Positions 60,853-62,325 of a stretch of 64,000 nucleotides of DNA are shown piece by piece (positions within the stretch are counted from its first letter, which is position 1; every line of letters starts with the position of its first letter). The notes under the pieces are model-generated. The model was not told the origin of the DNA, made no database searches, and saw only the letters and a list, made by a program, of their open reading frames with translations. The stretch spans positions 124,001 through 188,000 of the forward strand of contig JAADHU010000069.1 in assembly GCA_013151645.1 (NCBI GenBank). The letters run 5' to 3'. The DNA comes from Gammaproteobacteria bacterium. GTDB lineage: Bacteria; Pseudomonadota; Gammaproteobacteria; Steroidobacterales; Woeseiaceae. The position numbers and the translations under genes are program-made.

Positions 60853-62007
60853 CTAGCGCTCGGCAGCGGCGAGCAACTCGCTCTCGGTTTCTATCCCGGC
60901 GTAATAAATCCATATGTTTTCTTCGCCGGTCAGCAACTCGATATATTTCGGGTGGACGAACAGTGTTTCGCGGCCGGATTTGTATTCGCGCAGTATGCCA
61001 ATGTCGCAGAGTTGCTTGAGGTAGACCGACGCCGTCTGCCGTTTGGCAATACCGGTGTCAACCAGGTTGCTGATGCGGCAATACGGCTGTTTGAACAGCG
61101 CCTCGACCAGTTCCCAGGAGTATGTCTTTGGCAATTTTTCCTGCACGAATTGACTGGTGTGCTGCATCAGTTCGCGAATGGCCTTGATCTTGTCCGTCGT
61201 CCAGATGCAGGTTTCCTCGACGCCTTTTAACATGAAGAGAATCCACTCGCCCCAGGCTTGATTGCGCGTCACTTCGAGTAGCAGGCGGTAGTAGTCGCCC
61301 TTGTGTTCAATAATATGGCGGCTCAGGTACAGAATCGGGGAGTCCAGCAAACCCTGGTCGACCAGGAAGAGAATGTTCAGGATACGACCGGTGCGCCCGT
61401 TGCCGTCGGCGAACGGATGTATGGCCTCAAACTGGTAGTGCTGAATGGCCATCCGCACGAGCGGATCCAGCGTCTTGTTCTCATGCATGAACTGCTGCCA
61501 GTTATCCAGCTTTTCCTGAATGAGTGCCTGCCCCTGAGGGGGCGTATAGATAAGCTCTCCACTTATGCGGTTTTGCAATTTCGTCCCAGAATCAGCACGC
61601 AAATCAAGCTCGATATCTTTGATAGTGCTACAAATTTGAATGGCCATATCGGTGCTTAACATGCGGCGCCGAACCATTTTGCTGCCTTCAAAAAGCGCGC
61701 TGCGGTAGCGCAGGGCCTCCTTGGTGGCGGCGTCGGCTTTGTCCTCGGCGATATCGGCGAATTCGAACAACTTGTCGGTGGTGGTGACGATGTTTTCGAT
61801 TTCGGAACTGGCGCGAGCTTCCAGCAGGGGCAGGGCATTCACCAAAACGGCGGCATTGGGAATCAGTTCTGCCGCTTGCTTGAGCTCGGCCAGCGCCACG
61901 CGGGCATCAATGCATTTTTTCAGAATTTCCGTTGTTTCGATCAATTCCATCGGCGGGGGCAACAACGGCAGGGCGTTGTAGGGAAGTTTTGGATCAAAAT
62001 CAGTCAT
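60853..62007 (-). CDS. Fic family AMPylase with C-terminal winged helix
   Basis: A 384-residue Fic protein. The Fic motif HPFADGNGRTGR is at residues 197-208. A class II inhibitory helix precedes it, with the (S/T)xxxE(G/N) motif as SSEIEN (67-72), so the enzyme should be auto-inhibited. The C-terminus (about 298-370: FKQPYCRISNLVDTGIAKRQ then TASVYLKQLCDIGILREYKS) reads as a winged helix-turn-helix DNA-binding domain, as in the Shewanella Fic protein of this architecture. Targets are unknown. The start codon is 32 bp from a periodic dyad array (62039-62263), a plausible binding site for its own winged helix. Confidence 0.92.
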   Translation of the reverse strand: MTDFDPKLPYNALPLLPPPMELIETTEILKKCIDARVALAELKQAAELIPNAAVLVNALPLLEARASSEIENIVTTTDKLFEFADIAEDKADAATKEALRYRSALFEGSKMVRRRMLSTDMAIQICSTIKDIELDLRADSGTKLQNRISGELIYTPPQGQALIQEKLDNWQQFMHENKTLDPLVRMAIQHYQFEAIHPFADGNGRTGRILNILFLVDQGLLDSPILYLSRHIIEHKGDYYRLLLEVTRNQAWGEWILFMLKGVEETCIWTTDKIKAIRELMQHTSQFVQEKLPKTYSWELVEALFKQPYCRISNLVDTGIAKRQTASVYLKQLCDIGILREYKSGRETLFVHPKYIELLTGEENIWIYYAGIETESELLAAAER

Positions 62008-62038
62008 TCAGGGTTCCTCTGCCCGATTGGCTCAAGCG

Positions 62039-62263
62039 GTCGCCGGGATCGACACGTTCTCACGATATGTCGATAAAAGGAGTAAAATTCGACACATCAC
62101 TCGAACAGGTCGATCATACCGACACGAATCGTCAATATGTCGATAAAAAGACCTTTTATCGACATATACGGCCAATGTGTCGATGCGATCAACAAATTTG
62201 AACCTTATGTCGAAGAAAAGACCGTTTATCGACATGTTTGCAGTATAGGTCGATCGCATCGAC
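62039..62263. repeat. Seven-dyad array, 35-bp centre spacing (70-bp tandem unit)
   Basis: Inverted repeats of the half-site GTCGA/TCGAC occur with centres at 62046, 62081, 62116, 62151, 62186, 62221 and 62256, exactly 35 bp apart. Two types alternate: short dyads (about 15 bp: GTCGA-N5-TCGAC, centres 62046, 62116, 62186, 62256) and long dyads (about 25 bp plus A/T flanks, centres 62081, 62151, 62221). The central one has perfect 14-bp arms around 5 nt (62135-62148 with 62154-62167, core TGTCGATAAAA). Thus a 70-bp unit is repeated about three times. Between the units the sequence diverges, so the dyads are what is conserved. It fills the space between fic and the sulfatase gene. Confidence 0.9.
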
Positions 62264-62325
62264 CGGTGAGTGATGCAGTTCAATATTGGGACAAACGGTA
62301 TTCGAAGTGTGTTATCAATACCGCC

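Follow-up and report, generated by a model that had tools for sequence, protein, structure and literature searches.

The 64,000-nucleotide stretch of a Woeseiaceae gammaproteobacterium analysed here (contig JAADHU010000069.1, positions 124,001 to 188,000), referred to as the window, lies in a 3.96-Mb assembly and carries a fic gene whose upstream region is occupied by a ladder of inverted repeats, with a sulfatase gene on the other side. The ladder, or array, consists of two types of dyad with GTCGA/TCGAC cores, which were termed A where the cores are 20 bp apart and B where they are 10 bp apart. The features of the locus are listed below, the dyads without strand.

60853-62007, minus strand: fic, encoding a 384-amino-acid SoFic-type protein adenylyltransferase (Fic_N, Fic and SoFic-like_C winged helix), by profile and structure-database matches
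62039-62263: seven-dyad ladder in the order B-A-B-A-B-A-B with a 70-bp unit, proposed SoFic operator array
62039-62053: B dyad GTCGC/TCGAC, the fic-proximal end of the array
62069-62093: A dyad, cores 20 bp apart
62109-62123: B dyad GTCGA/CCGAC
62135-62167: central A dyad with 14-bp perfect arms
62179-62193: B dyad GTCGA/TCAAC
62209-62233: A dyad, the first past the TATACT box going towards fic
62242-62247, minus strand: TATACT, candidate -10 element of the fic promoter, read from the sequence and conserved upstream of close orthologues
62249-62263: B dyad immediately upstream of the TATACT box, the fic-distal end
62270-62273, minus strand: TCAC, part of another conserved block that lies 23-26 bp upstream of TATACT in 40 loci, its window position again read from the sequence

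The fic product scored 594.4 bits against the NCBIfam equivalog for SoFic (NF046030, cut-off 550) and 408 bits against the PADLOC SoFic model (E 9e-123), and its best matches in the Protein Data Bank (PDB) were SoFic entries with E-values down to 2e-147. The families PF13784, PF02661 and PF21248, the last being the C-terminal winged helix, were all matched above their cut-offs. Following the motif definitions given in PMC9755527, the translation contained the catalytic motif HxFx(D/E)GNGRxxR as HPFADGNGRTGR and the inhibitory helix motif (S/T)xxxE(G/N) near the N-terminus as SSEIEN. By these matches the neighbouring gene is a SoFic orthologue, and a Fic protein with both an inhibitory helix and a C-terminal winged helix is what an earlier reading of the letters, made without database searches (the sequence-only reading), had described. 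Named assemblies with the closest fic genes belonged to the Woeseiaceae or were other gammaproteobacterial or proteobacterial bins.

That reading had also described seven dyads spaced exactly 35 bp apart, with two types alternating in a 70-bp unit, and all seven centres were recovered on recomputation (62046, 62081, 62116, 62151, 62186, 62221 and 62256). The four B and three A dyads place 14 half-site slots on a 10-bp lattice with successive distances of 20, 20, 20 and 10 bp. One half was imperfect in three of the four B dyads (GTCGC at 62039, CCGAC at 62119 and TCAAC at 62189), while the central A dyad had the perfect 14-bp arms claimed for it (62135-62148 and 62154-62167) around a 5-nt gap. 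The region 62020-62290 contained 11 exact half-sites, where 5000 dinucleotide shuffles averaged 1.9 and never exceeded 9. It also contained six same-orientation pairs exactly 70 bp apart, where the shuffles averaged 0.007 and never exceeded 2.

Exact GTCGA-N15-TCGAC occurred three times in the 64-kb window, each time as an A dyad of the array. The cores alone were common, GTCGA-N3-30-TCGAC being found at 470 places in the genome against 80 for a reversed-pattern control, and TCGACA-N11-15-TGTCGA was found at seven places of which only two were inside the array (control, 0). Since the core is so widespread, loose dyad counts are uninformative; the signal is the ladder as a whole and not any single dyad. 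The ladder pattern had five matches in this genome, four of which were the array itself, and the array 27-mer was found only at the array when up to three mismatches were allowed. The ladder is thus not a dispersed repeat, the outcome that the sequence-only reading had set against an operator. The best A-like dyad outside the array, with one mismatch to the degenerate pattern, was located at G000:C51:68497-68525 and is a possible second SoFic target.

Upstream regions were taken from 97 loci with fic, of which one (L027) was dropped for its short upstream sequence and the remaining 96 were reduced to 79 distinct loci by duplicate removal; 49 of these had Fic identities of at least 70% to the window protein, 11 of 54-70% and 19 lower. 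At least two A dyads were present within the upstream 450 bp in all 40 orthologous loci from named assemblies (Fic 76-92% identity), and at least two were present in all 49 deduplicated regions at 70% identity or more, the window included. A survey of 60 related genomes including this one, which overlap in part with the 40 named loci, compared the ladder pattern GTCGA-N15-16-TCGAC-N13-16-GTCGA with the presence of fic. Within the family of the window organism the pattern was found in every one of the 21 genomes that carry a SoFic orthologue (at least 75% identity) and in none of the 16 others, 15 of which had no fic match and one (G035) a fragment only. In G002 and G010 the fic frame is broken and the ladder pattern is still present. 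The G035 stretch (L146, G035:C63:191000-195500) had, within 2083-2308, two short fic fragments and beside them cores at 2274, 2294 and 2304 on the lattice, with no site reaching 9 bits; gene and ladder look to have decayed together.

Ten of the 23 other genomes of the order had a ladder-pattern match, including G044 and G057 which carry a SoFic orthologue of about 74% identity. Two of the remaining eight matches were inspected: that of G040 had cores 20, 19 and 19 bp apart, and that of G055 was a ladder-like set on the lattice with cores at 1764, 1784, 1804 and 1814 of L105. On the far side of the ladder, nine of 20 neighbouring open reading frames (ORFs) in relatives were scanned, each being the longest within 1300 bp and not always the adjacent gene. 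Three encoded an M20 peptidase, two a formate-tetrahydrofolate ligase (FTHFS), two a glucose/sorbosone dehydrogenase (GSDH), one a regulator-domain protein and one a protein without family match. In the family of the window organism the presence of the ladder follows fic; the gene on the other side varies.

The geometry of the ladder was sharply defined across the 49 regions. Forward-reverse (f-r) core pairs peaked at offsets of 20 bp (134 pairs) and 10 bp (116), reverse-forward (r-f) pairs at 20 bp (227), and same-orientation cores at 70 bp with 339 pairs against 11 at 71 bp; sums of offsets also gave peaks, and small side peaks one base off were due in part to GTCGAC, which was counted as both cores. 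The peaks at 20, 10 and 70 bp give a unit of 20 + 20 + 20 + 10 = 70 bp. Intervening positions, beyond the half-sites with their flanks, held about 0.03-0.25 bits, so the spacer is kept in length and not in sequence, as the sequence-only reading had noted from the window. Flanking information was higher at A than at B half-sites. These logos were conditioned on exact cores, a condition from which slot counts anchored on TATACT alone, usable in 47 of the 49 regions, are free. With this anchor, exact cores filled the two slots of the first A dyad in 45/47 and 45/47 regions, those of the next B dyad in 39/47 and 38/47, and those of the second A dyad in 41/47 and 41/46, while occupancy was 0 when the slots were shifted by +3 or -3 bp. 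The number of A dyads per locus ranged from 2 to 5 (48 loci).

TATACT sits on this half-site lattice and, leaving the window aside, was found upstream of 47 of the 48 close fic genes; in L065 it lay at the outermost end of the 450 bp. Of the 48, 40 carry it exactly as TCGACnTATACT. If TATACT is the -10 element, a B dyad would lie just upstream of it and an A dyad over the start region, and the 5' leader would be about 225-230 nt long and hold most of the array. Inverted repeats were thus found in the candidate promoter region of fic. A standard -35 box was not identified upstream of TATACT, and the TCAC block is unlike one. The conserved block at 62264-62281 that includes TCAC is a possible promoter or activator element.

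The sequence-only reading had asked for the ladder in related genomes, and it was also found upstream of far more distant fic genes. The distant set of 21 SoFic genes comprised 11 from other gammaproteobacteria (54-61% identity), six from alphaproteobacterial plasmids, one from a Cedecea plasmid and three from E. coli, and was scanned with a matrix trained on the close loci. The scan returned 94 sites where 3.5 were expected, and paired sites occurred at f-r 20 (17), r-f 20 (20), f-r 10 (5) and f-r 50 (17). At least two sites were present in 20 of the 21 loci, and opposed sites at exactly 20 or 10 bp in 18, all but L085, L087 and L117. All three E. coli genes of the SoFic family that were inspected had a ladder upstream, in a species where a relative of the Cedecea gene (60-80% DNA identity) occurs in 278 of 5426 complete genomes. 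One of them, L117, had same-orientation sites 70 bp apart, and 20-bp pairs appeared with a relaxed half-site. With the relaxed half-site, neighbour distances in the E. coli and Cedecea ladders were multiples of 10 bp with two exceptions, one 91-bp distance in L117 and, in L115, an isolated site that lies 246 bp off, and the flank of the last half-site extended to the fic start codon. The ladder of L117 (E. coli AVS0750) reaches out to about -376 and those of L118 and L119 to about -165, so the number of units varies within E. coli. In the alphaproteobacterial plasmid loci, a recombinase-family gene lies directly downstream of SoFic in L111, L114 and L116 and an integrase gene upstream of it in L110 and L113, L112 being without annotation; plasmid replication or partitioning genes are nearby in four of these five annotated loci.

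A sister clade of Fic proteins, about 42-46% identical to the window protein, was associated with another half-site. Its recognition-helix region reads for example SRLTATKYL, as against AKRQTASVYL in the window group, and varies inside both groups. TGTATAG dyads (up to one mismatch per half, f-r or r-f offset of 20-21), a motif picked after viewing the sequences, were present in 11 of the 27 loci tested, the expectation being 0.02 loci at most. An unrestricted search for inverted 6-mers in this clade gave a noisy result whose mild peaks lay at 18, 20 and 22; the specific TGTATAG test was clean. Among 61 proteins placed on a tree, 26 of the 27 sister loci were set apart by a branch with 100/99 support; the other, L104, was counted among the 27 loci tested for TGTATAG and fell outside the 26-row clade on a long branch that drew a tool warning. 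Half-site labels were strongly clustered on this tree, the TGTCGA labels of 33 rows having been given by group membership, in view of the core distances and the matrix scan, and not blind, with 13 of the 49 close loci used. Constant spacing combined with a clade-specific sequence is the expectation for a fixed dimer with an altered recognition helix, and such a change of half-site from one Fic clade to the other at unchanged spacing speaks for Fic itself as the bound protein. Since certain sister loci (L120 and L121) carry only one f-r dyad, the A dyad is probably the basic dimer site. Upstream of the sister-clade fic genes L142, L143 and L144 there were GTTCA...TGAAC dyads with an offset of 19, which are a possible third half-site class or may be terminator-like hairpins.

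Operators with repeated palindromic sites are familiar from type II toxin-antitoxin systems, where they serve autorepression of the toxin gene; unlike in those systems, toxin and DNA-binding domain are one polypeptide here. Autorepression by a Fic protein with a helix-turn-helix (HTH) domain is already known. In CccR, a class II Fic protein of Yersinia pseudotuberculosis, the C-terminal HTH part binds an inverted repeat in the promoter, as footprinted, and the protein represses its own promoter (PMC9755527). CccR resembles the window Fic in being a Fic toxin with an inhibitory helix and a C-terminal HTH, and in having inverted repeats in its own promoter, which for the window is a candidate; dimer binding and negative autoregulation are features that its authors demonstrated (PMC9755527). 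It differs in having one pair of AGATAATCAT half-sites with a 26-bp spacer, compared with TGTCGA-type half-sites at 20 or 10 bp in the seven dyads of the window, where no single pair of the CccR type was found and the 20/20/20/10 lattice was found instead. CccR (PDB 7XUX) also matched the window protein weakly (E 4.6e-7), and its dimer is reported to be arranged unlike the SoFic dimer of 3eqx. By this analogy the ladder may work as the CccR operator does, although the type of operator is not the same.

The window protein belongs to the same family as SoFic and EcSofic, which act in single-gene anti-phage defence (PADLOC SoFic; PDB 3eqx, 9vjc, 9tch; PMC12249575). EcSofic dimerises through helix alpha-1, and the wild-type gene could not be cloned behind a single lac operator and could be behind three (PMC12249575), which indicates that tight control matters and would be selected. 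The main text of that paper is without the terms 'DNA binding', 'HTH' and 'winged' and proposes a small downstream antitoxin, AS1. CbFic2 of Coxiella burnetii likewise combines Fic with a C-terminal winged HTH and has an activity that responds to DNA; it differs in that it was studied with random DNA, the parts of PMC10628234 drawn on here reporting no specific operator.

We consider it likely that the array is a multi-site operator through which the winged helix of SoFic represses its own gene. In the proposed mechanism each subunit of a SoFic dimer would contact one TGTCGA(AT-rich) half-site through its winged helix. The A dyad, inverted at 20 bp and so with half-sites about two turns of the helix apart, would serve as the basic dimer site, and the repeated A dyads together with the weaker B dyads at 10 bp would align several dimers on one lattice. 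Since the candidate promoter box and the leader after it lie under the ladder, bound SoFic would stop transcription of its own gene, and this autorepression would keep the toxic AMP-transferase very low until repression is relieved, for example by phage infection. The sequence-only reading had proposed that the Fic protein regulates its own gene from this array, each half-site taking one winged helix, and retention of the ladder upstream of orthologues together with its scarcity elsewhere lends that proposal support.

Several observations weigh against this operator reading. The 10-bp B dyads misfit a single dimer spanning 20 bp, which touches on how the half-sites are paired. Among the distant loci, L087 had no site, its match beginning near residue 81, and the 5' end of its fic may be wrongly placed; L085 had weak sites only, two of them 70 bp apart. 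The TGTATAG-type dyad was not found in 16 of the 27 sister-motif loci. A looser A-dyad pattern with up to two mismatches recovered the three A dyads of the array and seven weaker places in this genome (reversed control, 1), and there may be further weak targets elsewhere in the genome. The ladder-like set of L105 (G055:C19, 1764-1818) combines A and B dyads with no detectable fic in the 4-kb stretch, and may be what remains of a lost fic or else a separate use of such sites. About 250 bp beyond it lie what we take to be an XRE-type gene and then a HipA-like gene. In five of the six alphaproteobacterial plasmid loci, fic has an integrase or recombinase gene nearby. The CccR half-sites are 36 bp apart from start to start, as computed from the AGATAATCAT-N26-ATGATAATCT footprint (PMC9755527), and not 20. 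CbFic2 binds random DNA with high affinity, and DNA binding by SoFic was described in 2023 as undemonstrated (PMC10628234).

An alternative that we regard as unlikely is that the array is chiefly a parking or control platform on which bound dimers are inactive or deAMPylating and from which release arms the toxin, repression being secondary. The activity of CbFic2 shifts upon DNA binding (PMC10628234), the toxicity of EcSofic is under control of its C-terminal domain (PMC12249575), and simple repression would seem to need fewer than the 2 to 5 A dyads found per locus. However, the conserved promoter-like box coincides with the ladder, as control of transcription predicts, and some sister-clade loci have a single dyad. 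It is also conceivable, and doubtful, that phased SoFic dimers form a filament on a DNA scaffold which both silences the gene and holds the toxin safe, in which case the antitoxin would be the protein's own operator DNA. If this were true, disturbance of the DNA or the filament in the course of phage infection would free protein and transcription together.

It is improbable that fic is controlled from the ladder by another DNA-binding protein, for example a regulator of the host. The seven weak A-like sites and the set without fic in G055 would fit such a protein, but the ladder accompanies fic on plasmids and chromosomes, in alphaproteobacteria as well as gammaproteobacteria, and half-site types group together on the Fic tree, so that a shared external regulator would have to be everywhere and to change along with Fic.

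The sequence-only reading had left room for hairpins acting at the RNA level, and this now appears very improbable for the fic leader. The array is mostly downstream of the candidate -10 box and the leader fold had z = -4.96, with none of 200 shuffles as good, but such a score is guaranteed by any inverted repeats. Complementarity of the inner arms over 134 A dyads was 0.464 compared with 0.491 for randomly dealt arms, the observed value being reached by 94.5% of shuffles, and so showed no excess of the kind expected from compensatory pairing; the only two Rfam matches were to miRNA families far below their gathering scores.

The other alternative raised there, a mobile repeat or an array of recombination sites, is scarcely credible and was rejected, because in spite of the tandem inverted sites, the plasmid integrase and recombinase genes, the IS1 transposase genes within the E. 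coli stretch L117 and the mobH relaxase gene in L118, copies away from fic are few, and neither the annotation around fic in Cedecea and the three E. coli strains nor the nine neighbour ORFs scanned in the relatives of the window included a recombinase or integrase.

No report of the ladder form, the lattice, its spread with SoFic through alpha- and gammaproteobacteria or the two half-site classes was found in searches of open-licence papers. SoFic is an anti-phage gene in many bacteria, and the question addressed here is by what means it is kept silent and what role its winged helix has. A conserved, clade-specific operator predicts the binding sequence and would tie the winged helix to control of the gene, and the two half-site classes offer a means of studying recognition. 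From the rigid 10-bp lattice it seems that several dimers bind in an ordered way, which would, if true, be unusual for a toxin operator.
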